Made by a program: the position numbers and the translations under genes. Shown here piece by piece: positions 5,797 through 61,589 of a stretch of DNA of 61,589 nucleotides; within the stretch, counting starts at the first letter, position 1; each line of letters starts with the position of its first letter. The notes under the pieces were generated by a model that saw only the letters and a list, made by a program, of their open reading frames with translations, did no database searches and was not told where the DNA came from. Source of the DNA: Tissierellia bacterium (GTDB lineage Bacteria; Bacillota; Clostridia; Tissierellales; Peptoniphilaceae); assembly GCA_030537875.1 (NCBI GenBank), contig JAUNVC010000007.1:1-61589 (forward strand), given 5' to 3'.

Positions 5797-6627
5797 ATGG
5801 CCATTAAAAAGTTTAAGCCGACCTCACCCGCCCGTCGAAATATGACGGTTTCCACCTTTGAAGAGATTACGAAAAAGGAACCGGAAAAGAGCTTGGTGGT
5901 TTCTCTTCCCAAACATTCGGGAAGAAACTCCAAAGGGAGAATCACCATGCGTCACAGAGGTGGCGGAGCCAAGAAAAAATATAGAATTATCGATTTTAAA
6001 AGAGATAAAGATGGCATCGAAGGCGTAGTCAACGCCATTGAATACGATCCCAATAGAAGCGCAAACATTGCCCTGATCTTCTATCGTGATGGAGAGAAAA
6101 GATACATTCTTCATCCCAATGGATTGAAGGTAGGAGATGTGATTGTTTCTGGGGAAGGTGCCGATATCAAAGCAGGAAATGCTTTGAAATTGAAAGATAT
6201 TCCCGTTGGTACGGTGGTACACAACATCGAACTCAAACCTGGCAAGGGAGGACAAATGGTCCGCAGTGCCGGAGGAGAGGCCCAACTCATGGGTAGAGAA
6301 GGAAAATATGCACAGTTAAGACTTCCTTCCGGAGAGATGCGCATGGTGCTTCTCGAATGTAGAGCCACCATCGGTCAAGTGGGAAATACAGAACACGAAC
6401 TCATCACCATTGGAAAGGCTGGAAGAAGCCGTTATATGGGAAGAAGACCCCATGTTAGAGGTTCTGCCATGAACCCTGTGGATCACCCCCATGGTGGTGG
6501 TGAAGGAAGAACTCCCATTGGACGTCCCGCTCCTATGACCCCTTGGGGCAAGAAGAGTGCCGGCGTGAAGACCCGGAAGAAAAACAAGAAGTCCAATGCA
6601 CTGATTATCAGAAGAAGAACCAAGTAA
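5797..6627 (+). CDS. rplB: 50S ribosomal protein L2
   Basis: A 276-residue L2 of standard length. [19 protein letters not shown] and the essential [17 protein letters not shown] loop with the conserved histidine near the peptidyl transferase centre are both intact. ATG follows AAAGGAGGGT. Confidence 0.98.
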
Positions 6628-9614: not shown

Positions 9615-10157
9615 ATGGCGCCAAGATTATTAGAAAAATACAAAAATGAAGTCGTATCTCAATTGGTTGAGAAATTCGGCTACAAGAATATTCACGAAGT
9701 ACCCAAGTTGGAAAAAATTGTGTTGAACATTGGACTTGGAAATGCAAAGGACAATCCCAAAATGCTCGAAAGTGCAGTTAAGGAATTGGCCCTGATTTCC
9801 GGACAGGCCCCCGTTGTAACCCAGGCTAGAAAGTCCATCGCTAACTTTAAGCTCCGTGAAGGAATGAAAATCGGTACAAAAGTCACCCTCCGCGGAGATA
9901 AAATGTACTACTTCTTAGATAAATTTATCAATATCGCCCTTCCTCGTGTACGGGACTTCCGGGGGATCAGCGACAAAAGTTTCGACGGTCGTGGAAACTA
10001 TGCAGTGGGAATCAAAGAACAATTGATTTTCCCCGAGATCATCTATGATGAGGTGGACAATATTCACGGAATGGATATCGCCATCATTACATCAGCGAAG
10101 ACCGACGAAGAAGCAAAGGCTCTCTTAGAGCTTATGGGCATGCCCTTTAGGAAGTAA
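9615..10157 (+). CDS. rplE: 50S ribosomal protein L5
   Basis: A 180-residue L5 binding 5S rRNA; conserved [32 protein letters not shown] and the C-terminal [20 protein letters not shown] are present. ATG 9615 follows AAGGAGG. Confidence 0.98.
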
Positions 10158-10169
10158 GGAGGAAGAACG

Positions 10170-10355
10170 TTGGCTAAAAAATCGAAAATTGCAAGTCAAA
10201 AGAGAAAACCGAAATTCTCCACTAGACAATATAATCGTTGTAAAATTTGTGGAAGACCCCACGGATATTTGAGAAAGTACGGGATCTGCCGTATATGCTT
10301 CAGAGAACTGGCTTACAAGGGTGAGATTCCCGGCGTAAGAAAGGCAAGCTGGTAG
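10170..10355 (+). CDS. rpsN: 30S ribosomal protein S14, zinc-binding type
   Basis: A 61-residue zinc (C+) form of S14, with cysteines at 24, 27, 40 and 43 forming the zinc ribbon. The start is TTG 10170 after AAGGAGGAAGAACG. The zinc form suits a Bacillota organism; a zinc-free paralog, if any, is not here. Confidence 0.96.
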
Positions 10356-10376
10356 ACGAAAGAAGGAGGTAGAACT

Positions 10377-10772
10377 ATGTTAACTGATCCTATTGCTGAT
10401 ATGTTAACCAGAATTCGAAATGCCAATAACCAAAGGCATGATTCTGTTGATATTCCGGCCAGTAAAATCAAGGTCCGTATCGCTGAAATTCTAAAAGAAG
10501 AAGGATTCATTGAGAGTGTTGAAATTTTAGAAGATAGCGTACAAAATACCATTCGTATTGGCCTAAAATACATTAACAAAAAGGAAAGGGTTATCTCCGG
10601 AATTCGTAGAATTTCTAAACCCGGACTGAGAATTTACGTAAATGCAAATGAACTGCCGAAGGTCCTTGGTGGACTTGGTATAGCTGTGATTTCCACATCC
10701 AAAGGAATCATGGTGGACCGAGACGCAAGGAAACAAAGAGTCGGCGGAGAAGTCATCTGCTACGTATGGTAA
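10377..10772 (+). CDS. rpsH: 30S ribosomal protein S8
   Basis: A 131-residue S8, a central-domain 16S binder and in proteobacteria the spc-operon repressor. [15 protein letters not shown] and the terminal [10 protein letters not shown] are diagnostic. GAAGGAGGT precedes ATG 10377. Confidence 0.97.
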
Positions 10773-10782
10773 GGAGGAAGTA

Positions 10783-11319
10783 ATGAGTAGAATTGGATTG
10801 AAACCTATTGAAATTCCTTCCGGAGTTACCATCGACATCAAAGGAAATGATGTAGTAGTGAAGGGACCCAAGGGAGAGCTTACTCTCACCAAGGTACCAG
10901 AGATGAAACTGGAGATGGAAGATGGTGTACTCAATGTGGTACGCCCTAACGAAACGAAGAGAATGAAGAGTCTTCACGGACTGACCAGATCCTTGATTCA
11001 AAACATGGTGACGGGAGTTACGGAAGGATTTAAAAAGAGTCTTACCATTGTAGGAACCGGTTATAGAGCACAGATGAGTGGCGCTAAATTGGGTCTTACC
11101 TTAGGATTTTCCCACCCATTGGAAGTGGAAATTCCCAAAGGACTCACCGTTGAAGTACCGGCACAAGATACCATCATAGTATCGGGTTCCGACAAGCAAC
11201 AGGTGGGACAATTCGCCGCCAAGATTCGCGGGTACAGACCGCCTGAGCCCTACCTGGGTAAAGGGATTCGTTACTCCGATGAAACCGTCCGTCGCAAAGT
11301 CGGAAAAACGGGTAAGTAG
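10783..11319 (+). CDS. rplF: 50S ribosomal protein L6
   Basis: A 178-residue L6 with two similar domains; SRIGLKPIEIPSGVTI at the start and RPPEPYLGKGIRYSDE near the end are typical. It lies by the GTPase-associated centre. Confidence 0.97.
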   Translation: MSRIGLKPIEIPSGVTIDIKGNDVVVKGPKGELTLTKVPEMKLEMEDGVLNVVRPNETKRMKSLHGLTRSLIQNMVTGVTEGFKKSLTIVGTGYRAQMSGAKLGLTLGFSHPLEVEIPKGLTVEVPAQDTIIVSGSDKQQVGQFAAKIRGYRPPEPYLGKGIRYSDETVRRKVGKTGK

Positions 11320-11329
11320 GAGGATGTAA

Positions 11330-11692
11330 ATGGTAAATAAAACAGATAGAAATAAAAATCGTCTTAAAAGACATAGAAGAATCCGTGTGAAAGTATCCGG
11401 AACCCAAGAAAGACCAAGACTATCTGTCTATAGAAGTGGGAAACATATCTATGCACAGATAATTGATGATGTTGCGATGATGACATTGGCAAGTGCATCC
11501 TCACTAGACAAAGAACTGACACTGGAACATACGGGAAACAAGGAAGCTGCCAAAGCAGTTGGCGAACTCATTGCGAAGAGAGCTCTGGACAAGGGCATCG
11601 AAGCAGTGGTCTTCGATAGAGGTGGATACATCTATCACGGAAGAATCAAAGAGTTGGCTGAAAGTGCTAGAGAAGCGGGCTTGAAATTCTAA
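11330..11692 (+). CDS. rplR: 50S ribosomal protein L18
   Basis: A 120-residue L18 binding 5S r[23 protein letters not shown] and the terminal REAGLKF are family hallmarks. Confidence 0.97.
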
Positions 11693-11705
11693 AGGAGGGA
11701 CTACT

Positions 11706-12209
11706 TTGCAAGAGAGAATAAAACACGAAGAGCTCGATATTAAAGAGAGAGTCGTAGCAATCAATAGAGTATCCAAGACCGTTAAAGGTGGTAAGAATTT
11801 CCGTTTCTCCGCACTGGTTGTGGTGGGCGACGAAAATTCCCATGTGGGCGTTGGTATGGCCAAAGCATTGGAAGTACCAGAAGCCATTCGTAAAGCAATT
11901 GCTGATGCGAAGAAGAACATGGTCACCGTTCCCATTGAGAACAATACCATTCCCCATGAAATCGTAGGACGTTATGGTGCTGGTAGAGTGGTTCTCAAGC
12001 CTTCCAAAGAAGGTACGGGAGTTATCGCAGGAAACGCTGTGCGTGCAGTCTGTGAGTTGGCAGGTATTAAAGATATCAGAACCAAATGTCTTGGAACAAA
12101 CAACCCCAGAAACGTGGTCAACGCTACGTTGAGTGGACTACTCAATTTAAAGCGTCCAGAAGATGTCGCTAAGAATAGAGGCAAGTCCCTGGAAGAGATT
12201 TTAGGATAG
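11706..12209 (+). CDS. rpsE: 30S ribosomal protein S5
   Basis: A 167-residue S5 with the double-stranded RNA binding motif ([20 protein letters not shown]) where spectinomycin-resistance changes occur, and [13 protein letters not shown]. The start is TTG 11706 after AAAGGAGGG. Confidence 0.97.
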
Positions 12210-12219
12210 GAGGTTCTTT

Positions 12220-12396
12220 ATGGCTAACATTAAGTACAGGCAAAAAAGAAGTCTCATCGGAAAACCTGAAAGTCATCGGAAAATAATCAAAGCCCTCGGG
12301 CTCAGAAGAATCGGCCATGTGGTTGAAACCAAAGATACTCCTCAAATTCGAGGAATGATCCATAAGGTTCAATACATGGTAGAAGTCATTGACTAG
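12220..12396 (+). CDS. rpmD: 50S ribosomal protein L30
   Basis: A 58-residue L30 between rpsE and rplO. ATG 12220 follows AGGAGG. The reading begins MANIKYRQKRSLIGKPESHR and continues through ALGLRRIGHVVE to a TAG at 12394-12396, matching the compact L30 fold and its normal operon place. Confidence 0.95.
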   Translation: MANIKYRQKRSLIGKPESHRKIIKALGLRRIGHVVETKDTPQIRGMIHKVQYMVEVID

Positions 12397-12408
12397 GAGG
12401 TGAGCATC

Positions 12409-12846
12409 TTGAAACTGGAACAATTAACATCAAACCAACAGAGAAAAACTAGAAAAAGAGTCGGTCGCGGAATCGGATCCGGTATGGGTAAAACATCTAC
12501 CCGTGGACAAAAAGGTCAAAATGCCAGAAGTGGCGGAGGCGTTCGTCCGGGATTCGAAGGAGGCCAGATGCCCCTCTTCAGAAGACTACCGAAGAGAGGA
12601 TTTACCAATATTTGGAGAACAGACTATGAGCTAGTCAATGTGGAAGATCTCAATATCTTTGATGAAGGCACTGTCATCGACAGAGAATTTCTCATAGAGC
12701 AGGGACTTGTCCGCAGAAACGCTCGTAGAGTGAAAGTCTTGGGTCGTGGAGAATTGACCAAGAAACTCACCATCAAGGTGGACAAAATTAGCGCCAGTGC
12801 AAAGGAGCAAGTTGAAAAGCTGGGCGGCAGCGTAGAGGTGATATAA
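12409..12846 (+). CDS. rplO: 50S ribosomal protein L15
   Basis: A 145-residue L15; [19 protein letters not shown] and [18 protein letters not shown] are diagnostic. The start is TTG 12409, six bases after AGGAGGTG; the in-frame GTG at 12400 overlaps that ribosome binding site and cannot use it. Confidence 0.95.
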
Positions 12847-12847
12847 G

Positions 12848-14122
12848 ATGTTTAAAACCTTACGCGATGCTTGGAAAGTTGCTGAACTACGGAAGAAAAT
12901 GCTCTTTACATTACTTTGTTTATTCATCTTCCGCTTGGGTTCCCACATTCCGGCACCCTTTATCAACAAAGATATTATCCGCCAGATTTTTGAAGGTGCA
13001 CAGGGCTCCGTCTTGGGGTTCTTAGACCTGATGGCAGGGGGATCCTTCTCGCAAATGAGTATATTTGCAATGAATATCTATCCCTACATCACTGCATCCA
13101 TTATCATCCAACTTTTGACCGTAGCTATTCCTAAATTGGAAGAGTTGGCAAAGGAAGGACAGGAAGGCAGAAGAAAATTAAACAAAATCACCCGTATCAC
13201 CGGTGTGGCCTTGGCAGCCATCCAAGCCATTGGAACCGTCTTCGGACTGTATGCCAGTGCCGTTACCGCAACGGGATTCTTACAAAGCTTTATTATGATT
13301 GTAACCCTCGTAGCAGGAACGAGTTTCTTGGTATGGTTGGGTGATCAAATCACAGAAAAGGGCGTTGGAAATGGTATTTCCTTGATTATTTTCATCGGAA
13401 TTATTTCCAGACTCCCCAGCAATATTTTGCAAAACATTCGTTTGGCCCAAGCAGGTGCTGCTTCTTGGCTATCAGTCATCATCTATTTCGCAATTCTCGT
13501 CTTGATCGTAGCCTTTGTTGTGCTCATTCAAGAAGGTGAAAGAAGAGTGCCGGTGCAATACGCCAAACGTGTGGTAGGTCGAAGAGTCTATGGTGGACAA
13601 GCCACCCATATTCCCATCAAAGTCAACATGGCTTCCGTTATGCCTGTTATCTTTGCTTCAACCTTTATGCAAATCCCGGGCACCATTGCCCTATTATCCA
13701 AAGGAGGATTCGCCAAGTTCTTGCAAAACTTCTTTACTCCGCAAGGACAGGCGGGATTCTGGATCTACTTGCTACTCAACTTTACCCTCATCGTATTCTT
13801 TACCTACTTCTATAATGCAATTCAATTCAATACGGTGGAATATGCAAAGAACATCCAATCCCAAGGTGGATTTATTCCCGGCATTCGTCCTGGAAAACCC
13901 ACCAGCCAATTCCTATCTCGTACGGTGAACAGAATTACCCTCATTGGTGGTCTGGCGCTGGCAGCGCTTTCAACAGCACCCCTTCTCCTTTCTCACTTCT
14001 CTAATTTGCAAGTGGGATTCCAAGGAACGGCTTTGATCATTGTCGTGGGTGTGGCTCTTGAAACGGTAAAACAACTAGAAGCACAGATGACCATGCGTCA
14101 CTACAAAGGATTCTTAGGATAA
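12848..14122 (+). CDS. secY: Protein translocase channel subunit SecY
   Basis: A 424-residue, ten-helix channel of the Sec translocon. The plug region follows FRLGSHIPAPF; the cytosolic loop EGERRVPVQYAKRVVGRR binds the ribosome and SecA. It is one base after rplO, as usual in the spc operon. The stop overlaps the adk start (TAATG). Confidence 0.98.
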   Translation: MFKTLRDAWKVAELRKKMLFTLLCLFIFRLGSHIPAPFINKDIIRQIFEGAQGSVLGFLDLMAGGSFSQMSIFAMNIYPYITASIIIQLLTVAIPKLEELAKEGQEGRRKLNKITRITGVALAAIQAIGTVFGLYASAVTATGFLQSFIMIVTLVAGTSFLVWLGDQITEKGVGNGISLIIFIGIISRLPSNILQNIRLAQAGAASWLSVIIYFAILVLIVAFVVLIQEGERRVPVQYAKRVVGRRVYGGQATHIPIKVNMASVMPVIFASTFMQIPGTIALLSKGGFAKFLQNFFTPQGQAGFWIYLLLNFTLIVFFTYFYNAIQFNTVEYAKNIQSQGGFIPGIRPGKPTSQFLSRTVNRITLIGGLALAALSTAPLLLSHFSNLQVGFQGTALIIVVGVALETVKQLEAQMTMRHYKGFLG

Positions 14123-14769
14123 TGCGACTTATATTGTTAGGCCCGCCAGGTGCGGGAAAAGGCACCCAAGCGACCTTTATAAAAGAAGAATTCAGGATAC
14201 CCCATATATCCACAGGGGATATCTTCCGTCAGAATCTACGCGACAACACGGAACTGGGACAAAAGGCCCGCGTCTATATGAACAAGGGAAAATTGGTCCC
14301 AGATGATCTCACCATAGAATTGGTCCGAGATCGTTTGAGCCGTGAAGATTGCAAATATGGATATTTATTAGATGGATTTCCAAGAAATTTGGTACAGGCG
14401 GAAGCCTTGAGCCAATTCTTGGAAGAGCGAGGCGAAAGTCTCGATGCGGTTATTGATATAGAAGTGGATAAAAACTCTTTGGTAGAAAGAATTACGGGAA
14501 GAAGAATGTGTAAGGATTGCAAGGCAAGCTTTCACATTCACAACTACCCTCCCCGTGAAGAAGGCAAGTGCGATCATTGCGGGGGAGAATTGTATCAAAG
14601 GGAAGACGACCGAGAAGAGACGGTCCTTAAACGTATCGGTGTGTACGAAGAGGAGACCAGTCCCCTTATCGCTTATTATGATAGGCAAGGCAAAATACAA
14701 AAGATCAACGGCAACGCTTCCATGGAAGATGTAAAGGCCGAAGTGCTCGAGGCACTACGGGAGATATAA
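14122..14769 (+). CDS. adk: Adenylate kinase, zinc-LID type
   Basis: A 215-residue enzyme interconverting ATP + AMP and 2 ADP. The P-loop GPPGAGKGTQA is at residues 7-17, DGFPRN at 84-89, and the LID carries four cysteines (130, 133, 150, 153) for structural zinc, common in Bacillota. The methionine aminopeptidase gene map, which normally follows, is absent. Confidence 0.97.
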   Translation: MRLILLGPPGAGKGTQATFIKEEFRIPHISTGDIFRQNLRDNTELGQKARVYMNKGKLVPDDLTIELVRDRLSREDCKYGYLLDGFPRNLVQAEALSQFLEERGESLDAVIDIEVDKNSLVERITGRRMCKDCKASFHIHNYPPREEGKCDHCGGELYQREDDREETVLKRIGVYEEETSPLIAYYDRQGKIQKINGNASMEDVKAEVLEALREI

Positions 14770-15038
14770 TGCCAGATAAGATCAAAGTAGGCCAAATCGT
14801 AAGAAGTAGAGCCGGACGAGACTTCAATCGGCATTTTGTCATCATTGAAGTCATGGACCATGAGTATGTGAGAATCGTAGATGGTTCTCTACGAAAAGTG
14901 GATGCACCCAAAAAGAAAAAGGTTAAGCACTTGGCATTTTTAAACGCCAACGCAACCAAAGATCCGGAATTTACATTTACAAACAAAAAACTAAAATCAT
15001 TGCTCAAATCATATAACGATGGAGGGGAAGACCGTTAA
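14769..15038 (+). CDS. KOW domain RNA-binding protein (L14e-like)
   Basis: An 89-residue basic protein with an N-terminal KOW/SH3-like barrel ([21 protein letters not shown]) followed by a lysine-rich stretch ([11 protein letters not shown]). In Clostridia a gene of this type sits between adk or map and infA; it is assumed to bind rRNA or assist ribosome assembly, but its function is not proven. The start overlaps the adk stop and its stop overlaps infA, so translation is coupled. Confidence 0.85.
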
Positions 15039-17499: not shown

Positions 17500-17524
17500 A
17501 TTCCCCGAAAGGGGAATTTTTATT
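17500..17524 (+). terminator. Terminator of the ribosomal operon
   Basis: ATTCCCC/GGGGAAT around a GAAA tetraloop followed by TTTTATTG. It closes the long operon 5 bases after rplQ. Confidence 0.9.
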
Positions 17525-17536
17525 GAGTTGGATGTC

Positions 17537-17565
17537 TTGTTTTTTTTTTGAAATTATGGTACACT
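17537..17565 (+). promoter_or_regulatory. Candidate promoter of the RiPP cassette
   Basis: TTGTTT (17537-17542), 17-base spacer and TACACT (17560-17565), 52 bases before the precursor start. A small dyad TATCA/TGATA follows at about 17577-17591. This is a plausible but not strong match. Confidence 0.5.
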
Positions 17566-17616
17566 TAGTTAAAGGTATCATATTTTGATATTTTACAATA
17601 TAAAGGGAGGTTCAAC

Positions 17617-17784
17617 ATGAATAAAAACATAAAACAAACAAAAATTGGTACAAATGCAATTGTAAAGGAGTCATGCCAAGTTATCCCGGAAAGTTTGAAA
17701 CAGTTGGCGAAGAAAAAAAGAATAGAATTAACTTGCTACTATGCAGGTTGTGGTGTTGCTGATAGTTGGCCACTGAGCAATTAA
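17617..17784 (+). CDS. Candidate RiPP precursor peptide
   Basis: A 55-residue peptide directly before a radical SAM/SPASM gene. ATG 17617 follows AAAGGGAGG by 7 bases. The N-terminal part (about 1-36) is lysine-rich and leader-like, with one cysteine at 20. The C-terminal part ELTCYYAGCGVADSWPLSN has cysteines at 40 and 45 within small and aromatic residues and is the likely core. There is no Gly-Gly cleavage site and no resemblance to the six-cysteine SCIFF peptides. Thioether (ranthipeptide or sactipeptide type) crosslinking is inferred from the neighbour, not seen. The gene is AT-rich relative to the ribosomal operon beside it. Role (antimicrobial, signal or redox peptide) is unknown. Confidence 0.75.
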   Translation: MNKNIKQTKIGTNAIVKESCQVIPESLKQLAKKKRIELTCYYAGCGVADSWPLSN

Positions 17785-17799
17785 GGAACGGAGTGAGAT

Positions 17800-19020
17800 T
17801 TGCACAAATTTAATACTAAAAACTATTTCTATGTATATCTAGAGGAAGTTAAACAAGCCTATAAGTTTGAAACGAAGGAAGAGAGACAGGACTTTATAGA
17901 ACAAGATGTAGAAGAAATTTTGAAAGATAGTGAACCTTTGATGTCTATTGGTCCTAAGACACGACGTGGCTTATTTCTTAATATTGCAAATACATGTAAT
18001 ATGCGGTGTACATATTGTTTTGCTAACCAAGGTAATTATGGGAAGAAACCTGGAATTATGGATTCAGGAACAGCGAGAAAAGCTGTCGACTATTTTATTA
18101 GAATGACGGAGCCTTGCTTTCAAATTAACATAATATTTTTCGGTGGAGAGCCATTGGTTAATTTTCCGGTCATAGTGGAAACGGTAAATCATGTTAATAA
18201 AACTTACTCTAACCGAGATATTAAGTTTCATTTGGTTACGAACGCCACTCTACTAAGCAAGAAAAGGATTGATTTTTTATCTGAGCACAATTTTAGTTTA
18301 GGAGTCAGTATCGATGGGTGCAGAGAAATTCAAAACAAACAAAGACCTTTGATTAACGGAAAAGATTCATATTATGAAACAACTAAACATTTGGAATACA
18401 TATTAAAAAGAATGAATAATGTACATGCAAGAGGAACATATGTAGATTTTAATGAACCTTTGGTGGATGCATATAGAAGTCTTTTAAAACTGGGGTTTAG
18501 AGAAGTTTCTATACCACCGGATGTTTTAGGCTGTAAAAATATAAATCAGTACGAAAGACTAGAATATCAATTGGATTTGTTATTTGAATACATAGTTGAT
18601 TATGCAAATAAAACCTTTACACTTCCATTTGGTATTTATATTGAAAGCTTGAGAAGATTATTTATGCAAAAAATAGATGTTGAATATACATGTGGATTAG
18701 GTGAGGATATATTATCAATAGATTATAATGGAAATATTTATCCATGTCATCGTTTTTCGTCAGAGGAAAAGTTCAAGATAGGTAATATTGATGATTATGT
18801 AAATACAAAAGAGTTGGAATTTACTTCAACAATATGCAATGCGTGTTGGAATAGATATACTTGCTCTCACGGCTGTCATTACAATGATTACATATTAGAA
18901 AAAGGGGAAAACAAAAAAAATCCTCTGTGGTGTAAGTATGCTAAGAAGTTAACGGAACAATCAATAAAATTGTGTGAATCCTTACCGAAGGAACTCATAG
19001 AGGAATATTGTTTGAAATGA
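17800..19020 (+). CDS. Radical SAM/SPASM peptide maturase
   Basis: A 406-residue radical SAM enzyme likely to modify the preceding peptide. The [4Fe-4S] SAM-binding motif CNMRCTYC has cysteines 66, 70 and 73; GGEP lies at 115-118. The SPASM domain has C298, C316, C346, C349, C355, C359 and C378 in the standard CX2CX5CX3C arrangement for two auxiliary clusters. The N-terminal 50 residues (MHKFNTKNYFYVY...) resemble the start of SCIFF/QhpD-type thioether maturases and may bind the leader. The start TTG 17800 is six bases after GGAG and 15 bases after the precursor stop. Composition is strikingly AT-rich compared with flanking genes, pointing to transfer. Exact chemistry cannot be read from sequence. 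Confidence 0.88.
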   Translation: MHKFNTKNYFYVYLEEVKQAYKFETKEERQDFIEQDVEEILKDSEPLMSIGPKTRRGLFLNIANTCNMRCTYCFANQGNYGKKPGIMDSGTARKAVDYFIRMTEPCFQINIIFFGGEPLVNFPVIVETVNHVNKTYSNRDIKFHLVTNATLLSKKRIDFLSEHNFSLGVSIDGCREIQNKQRPLINGKDSYYETTKHLEYILKRMNNVHARGTYVDFNEPLVDAYRSLLKLGFREVSIPPDVLGCKNINQYERLEYQLDLLFEYIVDYANKTFTLPFGIYIESLRRLFMQKIDVEYTCGLGEDILSIDYNGNIYPCHRFSSEEKFKIGNIDDYVNTKELEFTSTICNACWNRYTCSHGCHYNDYILEKGENKKNPLWCKYAKKLTEQSIKLCESLPKELIEEYCLK

Positions 19021-20930
19021 AGACTATTCGAAAATATATACAATGGCTAAAAGTATATGGTGGAAAAAGGGGGAAGAACTCTTTATTACTTTTTCTTTTG
19101 GCCATTGTTTTTCATGGGATGGTCGTACTGGCACCGGCCATTCAGAAAAACCTCATAGAGTCGTTGACCCATGCAGCCATTGATCACAGAGCCATTCTCT
19201 ATTACATAGGTGTTGCCCTTTGTCTGGCCATATGTACAGTGTTGGAAGTCTTTTTGTTGATTCAGATGAAGTTGACTTTGCAAAAGAAATTTACCCTTAC
19301 CATGCTCCACTCTATGTTGCGTTCTGAAAATAAGATTATTCAAAAAAGGGGTGCAGGGGCCTATTTAAGTCGCATCTTTGGGGATGCGGAGCAGATGAGC
19401 AACTTATATGGAGAGAATATTTTTACCGGCTTTATCAGTGTCCTTTCATCGATTGTGATTTTTATCATCGCCACCCGCTGGACACCATTATTTGCCTATG
19501 TGACCATTCCTACCACAATTCTGATTATTATCGTGATGATAGGCACCAATCAACTTCAGATGAAGTACTTTGCCTTGGCTCGTGAAAAGATTTATGAATT
19601 AAATCCCTGTGCCCTAGAACTCATAGAAAACAGAAAGACGATGATGGGGAATTTGTCCAATACCATGGCGTTTTCTTCCATCAAAGAGACCATGGAAGAA
19701 AGGGACCGTATGTTTTATAAATCGAGTCTTGCTGCCACCTTGGGAAACACATTGATACGGGTCATCAAAGACCTATCCTTTGTGTGCTTTTTTATTTTCT
19801 CTATGAATGAAATCCTGCGAGGTAAGCTGGACATTGCCACCTTTATTCCACTTATGGCATATTTGAACTTCTTCTATGCTCCTGTGGGTGAATGGAAGGA
19901 GTGGCAGGAAAGACTTTCAAAATTTGACTTTTTCAGCAAACGAAATGAAGAAAATTTTATGTTGAAACAGCACTATACTCTACCAGAAAATCATAGTCTT
20001 CGATTGGCAGGGGTCTCTGTAAAGCGAGGAGAAAAGACCATTTTATCTGATTTTCATCTCACCTTGGACCAAGTCTATGGTGTGGTTGGCCTATCGGGGG
20101 AGGGAAAGAGCACCCTGATTAAGGCACTTTTAAAAGAAATAGAAGACTACGAAGGACATATCGAAATCGGTGGGAAAGATGCCAGAGAAATTCCTTTGCC
20201 CATTGTTCATGGTTTCTTTAATACCTCATTTCAAGAGGCCGAGATTTTTGATGGAGATTTAAACTATAATGTAACTTTGGGTCGGACTGGGTTGGATGAT
20301 ATGACATATGATCAAAAACAAAAGGCCCTGGAAGAAAAGATAGGTGCGGAACTGGGAAGACTAGAAAAGGGTGAATCCATTTTGGACAGGGATCTCTTTT
20401 TGGAGATATACCATCTAGAACCATTTGAGTGGACGGAAGAAATGGAAGCCCAATGCAGATCCCATCTAGGCAATGTGGAATCCACGGCCCGAGAAATGGC
20501 AAAGATTTTAATGACAAAAAAGTATTATAAGACGAGCAGGTATGAATACATCCTAGAGGCTCTTCATTTACATCCTCTGGAGGAGAGAGAATTTGGACAG
20601 CGGGGAAGCCATATTTCCGGCGGAGAAAAGAATAAAGTTGCTTTGGCGAGATTCTATCTCAAAGAAGATTTTCCCTTCATTATGGACGAACCCTTTACGT
20701 CCCTTGACGAAAAATCGGAGAAAGAAAATCTTGCAATTTTATCTTCCATGGTGCGTGGCGGAAGGGGTCTGGTCATCAGTCACAAGTTGAATATTCTCCG
20801 TGAACTATCCGATGAAATCATTGTGATTCATGGCGGAAGAGTGGAAGCCGTTGGAACCCATGAAGAACTATTATCCAGATCCAAATTATATGGAGAGCTC
20901 TATCAAATGTATAGGGAAAAGAGAAAATAA
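19017..20930 (+). CDS. ABC transporter, permease-ATPase fusion, with enlarged ATPase domain
   Basis: A 637-residue half-transporter with about six membrane helices (residues 20-310) and a C-terminal ATPase. Walker A GLSGEGKST, signature HISGGEKNK and Walker B FPFIMDEP with its glutamate are present, as is the H-loop ISHKL. Between the Q-loop side and the signature the helical subdomain holds roughly 60 extra acidic/basic residues (around 430-510), unusual for exporters. No C39 peptidase domain is present, so leader removal needs another enzyme. ATG 19017 overlaps the maturase stop as ATGA; TTG 19008 is an alternative. Its base use is closer to the host than that of the maturase. Export of the mature peptide is inferred. 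Confidence 0.8.
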   Translation: MKTIRKYIQWLKVYGGKRGKNSLLLFLLAIVFHGMVVLAPAIQKNLIESLTHAAIDHRAILYYIGVALCLAICTVLEVFLLIQMKLTLQKKFTLTMLHSMLRSENKIIQKRGAGAYLSRIFGDAEQMSNLYGENIFTGFISVLSSIVIFIIATRWTPLFAYVTIPTTILIIIVMIGTNQLQMKYFALAREKIYELNPCALELIENRKTMMGNLSNTMAFSSIKETMEERDRMFYKSSLAATLGNTLIRVIKDLSFVCFFIFSMNEILRGKLDIATFIPLMAYLNFFYAPVGEWKEWQERLSKFDFFSKRNEENFMLKQHYTLPENHSLRLAGVSVKRGEKTILSDFHLTLDQVYGVVGLSGEGKSTLIKALLKEIEDYEGHIEIGGKDAREIPLPIVHGFFNTSFQEAEIFDGDLNYNVTLGRTGLDDMTYDQKQKALEEKIGAELGRLEKGESILDRDLFLEIYHLEPFEWTEEMEAQCRSHLGNVESTAREMAKILMTKKYYKTSRYEYILEALHLHPLEEREFGQRGSHISGGEKNKVALARFYLKEDFPFIMDEPFTSLDEKSEKENLAILSSMVRGGRGLVISHKLNILRELSDEIIVIHGGRVEAVGTHEELLSRSKLYGELYQMYREKRK

Positions 20931-59897: not shown

Positions 59898-61589
59898 ATG
59901 AATGTAAAAACATATAGAATTGTTTTAATTGTTCTACTTACAGGGATATTCTGTATTTTACAAATACAGAATATTCTTGGAGAAAAGTGTGACCATGAAT
60001 TTGAACAAATATATAAGACACAACTAAGGGGCAGAATAAAAATGATAGGAAACACTTTACAAGAACCTGCAACGTTGCTTGAAACAAATAAACTCAATAA
60101 TAACGATTATACTATGAAATTTGCAGATAAAGACAGCGATACATCTACGGAGAGCTCATCTTCTGCATGGTTGGAACTCAAAGATACTGTTAGAGTGAAA
60201 AAAGCCTTTCTTGTATGGGGAGGCACAATGAACAAAGAAAAAAGAACAAGTAAAGATGTATGTAATACAACCTATAAAAATGGGAGTCCAAGCATTGAGT
60301 TTAAAACACCAGGAATGACAGATTATGAAATCATTTCAGCCAAGGAATTTCATCAGATAACATGTGAAGAAACAAGGTGCGCTTATGTTGCATATGCAGA
60401 TGTGACGGAAAAAGTTAAGGAAAAAGGTACGTACTGGGGCGCTAATATTGATCAAGTGACTGGCGGTTCTGATCTATATGGGGGTTGGAGTTTAATTGTG
60501 GTATTAGAAGATGAGGATTTACCTTTGCATGATATCACCATATTTTTTGGTCATGTTGTTGTGAGTCCTGAAATAGGGGATCGAAAAGTAAAGATTGAAT
60601 TTGGACGTACACCTTACAAAGGAGATGTGAAAGCAAAGCTTGGTTTTATTACTTGGGATGGCGATAGAAACTTTAAAGGAGATCAAGTATTTCTGGATGG
60701 TCAGATCCTATATGATGATTTATCTGAGAAACAAAACTTTTTTAATTCCTCCATTACAGACGAAAATACATTTGTTCCAGACAATAGGCCAAATTACAAT
60801 ATGTCCATTGATATTAAGCGCATAAATATTGATACAATGTTGAAAAATGATATTAAAGAAACGACTTTAAACTTTTTGACAACATATGAATGGTATTACC
60901 CAACGGTGTTAACATCAGAAATTGAATTGGCTGATCCCGCAGTTACAATAGAAAAAACAGTAGAATCTTCCAATAGGTTAGATACTGTTGAAAATGGAGA
61001 TATATTAACGTACACGATAAAGATAAAAAACGATAGTATAACTGAAGCAACCAATGTTACAATGGAAGATAGACTTCCAGAGGAAATTGAATATATAGAG
61101 GGTACAATGGTTGTTTCTCCTAATTCGGCGCCTGCCACAATTGAAAAAAATAGAAAGATAAGTGTACAGATTGATTCATTGAAACCCAGTGAAACGGTTG
61201 AACTAACATTCAAAACGAAGGTAACAAAACAAGATTTGGAAAATGGTGTAACAAACATAGCCTATGTTCGTTACAAAAGCTCTAAAGGTGATATTGAAAA
61301 AAGTTCGGTTGCAGAAATTGGAGTTGCAAGACCCGACTTTATTTTTGAAAAGACCGCAGATAGAATGCCGAGTCATACGCTGACGGCTGGTGATAAAGTA
61401 GTATATAAGTTTTTTGTTAAAAATACAGGAAACACACCTCTGTCCGATATAAAAATTGAAGACCCCAAAATAGGACTTGACTTCGTGGATTTAAAGAGCA
61501 CGCTTGAGCCCGGTGGTGAAAAAACCATTGTCGCAACCTATACGGTAAGTAGAGAAGATGGGAAGAATGGCGAAATTATCAATACAGCG
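59898..61589 (+). CDS. DUF11-repeat cell-surface protein (3' partial)
   Basis: A frame open from ATG 59898 (after TGGAGG) to the window edge, 564 codons. An N-terminal hydrophobic segment (RIVLIVLLTGIFCILQ) is a signal peptide or anchor. Residues about 25-330 are a large beta-rich domain (LVWGGTMNKEK, GGWSLIVVLEDED) found at the front of bacterial surface proteins. Then DUF11-type repeats start near residue 355: ENGDILTYTIKIKN and AGDKVVYKFFVKNTGNTPL mark two. The gene is AT-rich compared with its neighbours. The C-terminal anchor is outside the window. Confidence 0.82.
   Translation, partial: MNVKTYRIVLIVLLTGIFCILQIQNILGEKCDHEFEQIYKTQLRGRIKMIGNTLQEPATLLETNKLNNNDYTMKFADKDSDTSTESSSSAWLELKDTVRVKKAFLVWGGTMNKEKRTSKDVCNTTYKNGSPSIEFKTPGMTDYEIISAKEFHQITCEETRCAYVAYADVTEKVKEKGTYWGANIDQVTGGSDLYGGWSLIVVLEDEDLPLHDITIFFGHVVVSPEIGDRKVKIEFGRTPYKGDVKAKLGFITWDGDRNFKGDQVFLDGQILYDDLSEKQNFFNSSITDENTFVPDNRPNYNMSIDIKRINIDTMLKNDIKETTLNFLTTYEWYYPTVLTSEIELADPAVTIEKTVESSNRLDTVENGDILTYTIKIKNDSITEATNVTMEDRLPEEIEYIEGTMVVSPNSAPATIEKNRKISVQIDSLKPSETVELTFKTKVTKQDLENGVTNIAYVRYKSSKGDIEKSSVAEIGVARPDFIFEKTADRMPSHTLTAGDKVVYKFFVKNTGNTPLSDIKIEDPKIGLDFVDLKSTLEPGGEKTIVATYTVSREDGKNGEIINTA
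59946..59974 (+). repeat. Perfect inverted repeat in the signal-peptide region
   Basis: ATATTCTGTATTT (59946-59958) and AAATACAGAATAT (59962-59974), separated by TAC, form a perfect 13-bp hairpin within codons 17-26 of the surface protein. It could act in mRNA folding or transcription pausing. Confidence 0.8.

Follow-up and report, generated by a model that had tools for sequence, protein, structure and literature searches.

Contig JAUNVC010000007.1 of a Tissierellia bacterium was analysed over positions 1 to 61,589 (hereafter, the window). Behind the ribosomal operon, three co-directional genes at window positions 17617-20930 encode a 55-residue peptide, a radical S-adenosylmethionine (SAM)/SPASM maturase and an ATP-binding cassette (ABC) exporter. 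Judging from the sequences, the three genes very probably serve to produce a small peptide with cysteines, to cross-link it chemically and to export it. No description of such a peptide was found, and none of the cassette came up in the open-licence literature listed for the core strings, ranthipeptides, PapB/QhpD, Ezakiella and Peptoniphilaceae; the core strings led to unrelated work on Wolbachia. The reading we lean towards, and hold to be somewhat probable, is that of a small ranthipeptide-like ribosomally synthesized and post-translationally modified peptide (RiPP) with a single thioether between Cys45 and Asp49 (Cys-X3-Asp, or CX3D), which would be exported and would probably act as a narrow-spectrum antibacterial, with the exporter protecting the producer. 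By enzyme ancestry and motif the cassette is classed as ranthipeptide-like, outside every curated family scanned. Genomes and loci of the survey are denoted by G and L numbers.

Cassette organization and precursor peptide

The precursor gene (17617..17784, + strand) encodes a leader followed by a C-terminal core, starts with ATG, is preceded by AAAGGGAGG as a good ribosome-binding site, and has a counterpart in three other genomes. The maturase gene (17800..19020, +; 406 residues, TTG start) follows after a 15-base gap, and the exporter gene, comprising permease and ATPase (19017..20930, +; 637 residues), overlaps the maturase stop with its ATG. In the mechanical list of open reading frames (ORFs), the exporter begins at TTG 19008; an overlap of four bases (ATGA) and the alignment of orthologues favour ATG 19017, four bases inside the maturase, as the most likely start. 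The initial annotation had proposed precisely such a compact unit, including the 15-base gap and the 4-nt overlap, and the ORFs agree with it.

The order peptide-maturase-exporter is found in four genomes (the window's, Ezakiella peruensis, G213 and G423) from three families of one class, with the peptide directly upstream of the maturase at all four orthologous loci. The window's genome, a 1.19-Mb draft that is 72% complete, belongs to Ezakiella, an anaerobic, human-associated genus; a further genome of the genus (G003) has a cassette identical to that of E. peruensis NZ_LT962473.1. The precursors measure 55 residues in the window, 39 and 40 in two of the others, and 41-44 in G423, where the start is ATG or GTG.

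The conserved core CYYAGCGVADSWP (C40 to P52; 17734..17772, +) reads C-x-Y-x-G-C-G-x-x-D-x-W-P in all four cassettes, with eight of thirteen positions invariant. Five of the seven invariant residues other than Trp are encoded by more than one codon, and the variable DNA columns of the core number 4, 3 and 9 at the first, second and third codon positions, i.e., change is mostly at the third. Core conservation, third-position-biased change and placement at four of four loci together indicate that the peptide is more than a chance frame. The outcome that the initial annotation had named as damaging to its proposal, a frame not conserved beside maturase homologues, was thus not observed. Within the core, Cys45-X3-Asp49 (17749..17763, +), the predicted thioether ring with PapB-type CX3D spacing, is the only CX3D in the peptide, as is the case in each of the four precursors, and it is also invariant in two orphan cores of genome G018.

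The window precursor has three cysteines: C40 and C45, which lie in the conserved core, and C20, a leader cysteine that the other three precursors lack. The two cysteines near the C-terminus noted at first are therefore correct, yet the count was incomplete. The four precursors have no NCBIfam match and no Pfam match above cut-off (one reaches 15.3 bits to RPAP2_Rtr1, cut-off 33), in line with the earlier view that the core does not match SCIFF, sactipeptide, streptide or darobactin precursors.

When the 130 genomes of the family were scanned with a DNA pattern for YxGCGxxDxW, seven matches were obtained in six genomes, and none with the reversed control. Two are cassettes, two are the orphan cores of G018 and three come from one genus. 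The last three, which read YVGCGPKDLW, were dropped; the one that was read sits, by eye, inside an ornithine carbamoyltransferase-like gene and is a coincidence.

The cassette is probably its own transcription unit, given that a terminator-like hairpin follows rplQ (17500..17520, +; inverted repeat 17497-17506/17511-17520, then a T run). Six terminator-like sites were found by scanning the region, versus 2.2 in shuffles. A hairpin of -20.6 to -29.4 kcal/mol separates precursor and maturase in three of the four cassettes, which fits an excess of precursor transcript; in the window, the gap there is 15 bases.

The maturase and its relatives

The window maturase matches Pfam Radical_SAM (9.4e-17) and SPASM (3.6e-4; 21.2 bits, just below the 21.5 cut-off). 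The CX3CX2C motif (C66, C70, C73) and seven SPASM cysteines (C298, C316, C346, C349, C355, C359, C378), already pointed out in the initial annotation, are invariant in the four cassette maturases, i.e., all ten Fe-S cysteines expected for a full SPASM maturase are kept at 38.7-54.2% pairwise identity. The best solved-structure match by sequence is 5wgg (8.6e-48), which we take to be the SCIFF maturase CteB.

The best NCBIfam profiles for the window maturase are Nif11 (231.7 bits), PapB (219.3), SCIFF (193.1) and QhpD (180.0), while PapB (NF047865) is the top profile for the other three, at 225.8 bits in E. peruensis, 225.7 in G213 and 220.7 in G423. All four scores lie below the 340-bit PapB cut-off, and none of the four maturases reaches any curated NCBIfam cut-off among the models listed, which are the best 25 of 73 for the window, of 62 for G213 and of 79 for E. 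peruensis, and one model at 1e-60 for G423. Among other maturases scored against the PapB profile, four pass its cut-off (359-481 bits), and of six others besides G423, five (L099, L146, L147, L148 and L155) score 228-294. An anti-phage role was considered and rejected, the only such matches being to the viperin-like superfamily, at 59.4 bits at best.

A maximum-likelihood tree was built from a chosen set of 34 maturases; in it, the four cassette maturases form one clade with 100/99 support. This clade stands apart from the PapB family (L097, L105, L142 and L143, assigned by score, and the near copy L145), from SCIFF (L147, assigned by score, and seven others grouped with it), and from the QhpD and Nif11 representatives (L154 and L152), both labelled by plasmid annotation. 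Like the gene set, the gene order and their conservation, the motif set and this clade are direct observations.

A strict maturase search returned orthologues in 3 of 249 genomes of the order (the window's, E. peruensis and G213), 3 of 391 of the class (the window's, E. peruensis and G423) and 1 of 398 of the phylum (the window's own); these genome sets share members, and some are evenly drawn samples of larger groups. The same search around G423 and G213 (79, 20 and 378 genomes) returned the centre genome only. At 1e-25, 118 of the 130 family genomes have a match, at about 30% identity, and only the window's genome and E. peruensis exceed 183 bits; one weaker match that was scanned, L147, is a true SCIFF maturase at 714 bits. 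A wider contig scan listed 77 matches with a maturase frame above 300 residues, 37 of them with a SCIFF-type peptide upstream, and among these 77 the cassette core occurs only at E. peruensis. Further members of the cassette may exist.

On viral contigs, the single maturase protein had no match, the maturase alignment matched seven loci at 24-29% identity, and the core pattern had no match. The maturase matched 183 plasmid records, all below 60% identity, the best being about 31% among the best 40 of 183. No plasmid matched the exporter at 1e-40, and no plasmid or phage matched the precursor. To see whether the cassette was inserted at a conserved site behind rplQ, seven downstream genes of the window were compared with five other Ezakiella genomes; none of the seven matched within the 4-5 kb that follow rplQ there.

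Predicted crosslink chemistry

The thioether, its position and the binding of the leader are predicted by analogy with relatives. The initial annotation had inferred a thioether between a cysteine and a nearby residue; it is narrowed here to a Cys45-Asp49 bond because the best-scoring relatives of known chemistry (PapB, SCIFF and QhpD) make cysteine thioethers to non-alpha carbons, and because the CX3D motif is invariant. According to PMC9413430, PapB forms its Cys-X3-Asp link between Cys and the beta carbon of Asp; according to the review PMC8172795, QhpD links Cys to methylene carbons of Asp or Glu, and SCIFF maturases are likewise assigned non-alpha thioether chemistry. A peptide with CX3D (C-x-x-C-D or similar) lies upstream at all four loci that pass the PapB cut-off (L097, L105, L142, L143), two of which belong to the window's bacterial family; at the below-cut-off loci L146, L148 and L149, no upstream peptide was found, or none that convinces.

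In the proposed sequence of events, the maturase would bind the leader of the precursor. When a profile built from three cassette maturases is aligned with a PapB-family maturase, the match spans columns 2-416 of 419, N-terminal region included, and by analogy it is this region that should bind the leader. The radical SAM cluster would generate a 5'-deoxyadenosyl radical that takes a hydrogen atom from the beta carbon of Asp49, and the SPASM clusters would help to bond the sulfur of Cys45 to this carbon, which closes a single Cys-X3-Asp thioether ring (-2 Da), with Cys40 either free or engaged in a second bond. The overlapping exporter would then carry the product out. As no protease was found in the cassette, the leader would be cut off by a protease encoded outside it.

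Several observations weigh against this scheme. The main weak point is Cys40, which is as invariant as Cys45 and is left without a partner: there is no acidic residue at +4 (the segments read CYYAG, CDYAG and CYYEG, the last with Glu at +3). The spacing alone proves little, since PapB accepts Cys-Xn-Asp with n = 0-6 in vitro, according to PMC9413430. (The review PMC8172795 states that PapB fails on CX4D, which the later PMC9413430 contradicts for minimal substrates.) The PapB-like locus L146, below cut-off, has no cysteine peptide upstream. The top profile of the window maturase is Nif11-type, which offers no citable chemical guidance. In the tree, the cassette clade is not beside PapB and joins a long-branched row instead (94/91); its deeper position is weakly supported, and long branches affect the placement. 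Finally, the window maturase is short by 9-11 residues of the N-terminal region that are present in the other three, so that it could bind the leader less well.

Alternatively, the maturase may form a different bond on the same peptide: a sactipeptide link, in which Cys is joined to an alpha carbon, a link from Cys to Tyr or Trp, or a pair of crosslinks using both cysteines. We regard this as rather unlikely, though it is the likeliest of the alternatives. Cys40, Tyr42, Trp51 and Pro52 equal Cys45 and Asp49 in invariance, and the tree separates the cassette clade from those families of known chemistry that it included. Sactipeptide maturase profiles, however, score far lower on the window protein (RumMC 84.1 bits, GggB 77.1) than those of non-alpha thioether maturases, and Cys-X3-Asp is kept even in the two orphan cores of G018. 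With its one CX3D, the peptide offers a simple substrate with which to study how the acceptor residue is determined in these enzymes.

The exporter and the apparent gain and loss of the cassette

The window exporter matches Pfam ABC_membrane (75.5 bits) and ABC_tran (70.5), both above cut-off, and the four cassette exporters share 32.7-41.1% identity. In all four, Pfam gives only these two domains above cut-off; the C39 peptidase domain, by which PCAT exporters are recognised, was not found among them, hence leader removal must occur elsewhere. A long stretch from N-V-T-L-G to G-Q-R-G before the ABC signature (20283..20591, +; 103 residues) is conserved as an insert, and poorly in sequence, with an N-[VI]-T-L-G to G-Q-R-G distance of 102-112 residues in the four cassettes. 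From Walker A to the ABC signature, the six cassette-type exporters (the four cassettes, G002 and G026) have 166-176 residues versus 86-91 in three other ABC exporters from fetched loci, which puts the insert at approximately 75-90 residues.

At 1e-70, the exporter profile matches 4 of the 130 family genomes, namely the window's, E. peruensis, G002 and G026. Here G002 and E. peruensis are collinear, and the DNA on either side is about 95% identical. In G002, the precursor is gone, a different short open frame is present, the maturase is reduced to roughly its last 35 codons, and the exporter is full length. Between the two, the exporter has a ratio of nonsynonymous to synonymous substitution rates (dN/dS) of 0.107; the gene that follows has 0.084, and the two that precede have 0.074 and 0.277. 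In G026, the exporter stands alone between other genes, and no trace of precursor or maturase was found. G018 has two copies of the core, neither with a standard start codon in frame, and at the thresholds used this genome showed no cassette maturase or exporter; these orphan cores look like relics. In the window, third-position G+C is 0.261 for the maturase, the lowest of 53 long ORFs (mean 0.458, s.d. 0.060), and an ordinary 0.439 for the exporter, i.e., the maturase is compositionally foreign and the exporter host-like.

The exporter-only genomes, the cores of G018 and the contrast in G+C between maturase and exporter all fit a resident exporter that is kept for protection, beside which the peptide-maturase pair comes and goes.

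Biological role and regulation

The antibacterial role and the immunity are suggested by these patterns of gene loss. In G002 and G026 the exporter has been retained although the peptide and an intact maturase are missing, which counts for an antibacterial role, as does the exporter dN/dS of 0.107 between G002 and E. peruensis; the cassette would fit a bacteriocin-like module with exporter-borne immunity. Since the exporter most likely also protects the producer, the product would probably be a narrow-spectrum antibacterial peptide. Speaking against this, that dN/dS value averages both lineages, and the G002 exporter may be kept for another reason, or the pair may have been lost recently. The exporter-only genomes are a natural test of antibacterial action and exporter immunity.

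A bolder proposal, which we consider unlikely, keeps the antibacterial role and posits a new RiPP family in which CxYxGCGxxDxWP undergoes a distinct chemistry, bicyclic or mixed, the exporter with the long insert in its ATPase is the immunity protein, and the peptide-maturase pair is swapped in and out beside a resident exporter. If true, the exporter-only species would be immune non-producers.

Slightly more doubtful still is that the product is a cell-cell signal rather than an antibacterial, with the ABC protein serving for export only. Streptococcal radical SAM peptides are under the control of Rgg quorum systems, and the two orphan cores of G018 adjoin regulators that appear XRE-type by eye (the one scanned has a 20.7-bit helix-turn-helix match, cut-off 71.65) and have a perfect 26-bp palindrome in front of them. 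Those cores, however, lack the start codon, maturase and exporter of a working cassette, as described above; no XRE-like regulator was seen in the stretches read beside cassettes, although the G423 contig begins only about 180 bases upstream; and retention of the exporter alone fits immunity better than signalling. It is highly improbable that the small ORF is a frame due to chance or to regulation and that the maturase has another substrate: although the peptide is short and matches no family, its protein sequence is conserved next to each of the four maturases, change is biased to the third codon position, and the ribosome-binding site is good.

In front of the E. peruensis cassette lie BlaI- and BlaR1-like genes (L038:6561-8348; weak matches of 37.5 and 58.7 bits, below cut-off), and a palindrome, TGAGTATATACTCA, overlaps a TTGACA/TATACT promoter (by eye). 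This repressor-sensor-like pair is kept in the collinear G002 despite the loss of the peptide and most of the maturase. No such genes were seen, by eye, among the listed ORFs beside the window cassette.

Other RiPP-like loci

Genome G018, of the same bacterial family, also has a different RiPP-like cluster at L047:9865-14510, with a SkfB-like radical SAM gene (13220-14281, - strand; 75.9 bits, cut-off 300), an ABC exporter (11615-13204, -), a YcaO-domain protein (9865-11625, -) and a short peptide, MKILFKGLRQGTITIKSCGTKRTQQTKTTLM, read upstream. The radical SAM and YcaO genes look like an unusual pair. In the same L047, the perfect 26-bp palindrome TGTACAGGACACATGTGTCCTGTACA lies at 6401-6426 and 14929-14954, each time before an orphan core peptide and in the vicinity of XRE-like regulators. 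The two blocks resemble a duplication and have transposase-like ORFs in between.

Beside the G213 cassette, L048:3831-5620 holds a second radical SAM RiPP-like pair, in which a CefB-like maturase (128.8 bits against a cut-off of 600) accompanies a peptide ORF that ends GNHWCCAC. On plasmid pAPRE01 of Anaerococcus prevotii (L151:3476-5062), a 50-residue 'hypothetical protein' with CMWCD and CIFCD motifs has as its neighbour a maturase above the PapB cut-off (359.1 bits for L142, the matching region), and is a candidate unlabelled ranthipeptide on a plasmid typed as conjugative. The window itself ends in a large open frame (59898-61589) with a low third-position G+C of 0.271, which by eye resembles a repetitive surface protein.

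Comparison with known systems

At all four orthologous loci, a precursor with a conserved core is predicted beside a modifying enzyme and an exporter, the arrangement by which RiPP biosynthetic cassettes are recognised. With this cassette, the thioether-forming radical SAM peptides gain a separate clade of maturases and a new core motif; the view of the initial annotation that it is new holds as far as the libraries scanned reach. Ranthipeptides are a chemical class in which a radical SAM enzyme links a Cys sulfur to a beta or gamma carbon; of their features, the cassette shows the CX3D motif.

The Nif11-like peptide maturases (TIGR04064) give the highest-scoring profile for the window protein, yet its score is far below their 518.7-bit cut-off, and the precursor has no Nif11 match in Pfam or NCBIfam. 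QhpD/PeaB (TIGR03906) is a homologous enzyme that makes Cys-Asp and Cys-Glu links, according to PMC8172795. The window maturase, however, scores 180 bits against a cut-off of 453, and the QhpD substrate is an enzyme subunit rather than a small exported peptide; no amine dehydrogenase genes were recognised by eye among the ORFs of 15.5-26 kb, where no family search was made. SCIFF (TIGR03974) shares the enzyme architecture and, according to that review, the non-alpha thioether chemistry predicted here, but the window maturase reaches 193.1 bits versus a cut-off of 425, and SCIFF-type precursors carry SCQSACKTSC and are defined by six cysteines, whereas the cassette precursor has two core cysteines.

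The PapA/PapB ranthipeptides (freyrasin; NF047865) resemble the cassette in their radical SAM/SPASM maturase, in the Cys-X3-Asp precursor, which is found in four of four cassettes, and in the near end-to-end alignment of the maturases. The cassette maturases nevertheless score 219-226 bits, short of the 340-bit cut-off of the PapB family, and form a separate clade; moreover, the cassette has one CX3D versus six in PapA, together with a G-C-G-x-x-D-x-W-P core and an ABC exporter with a long insert.

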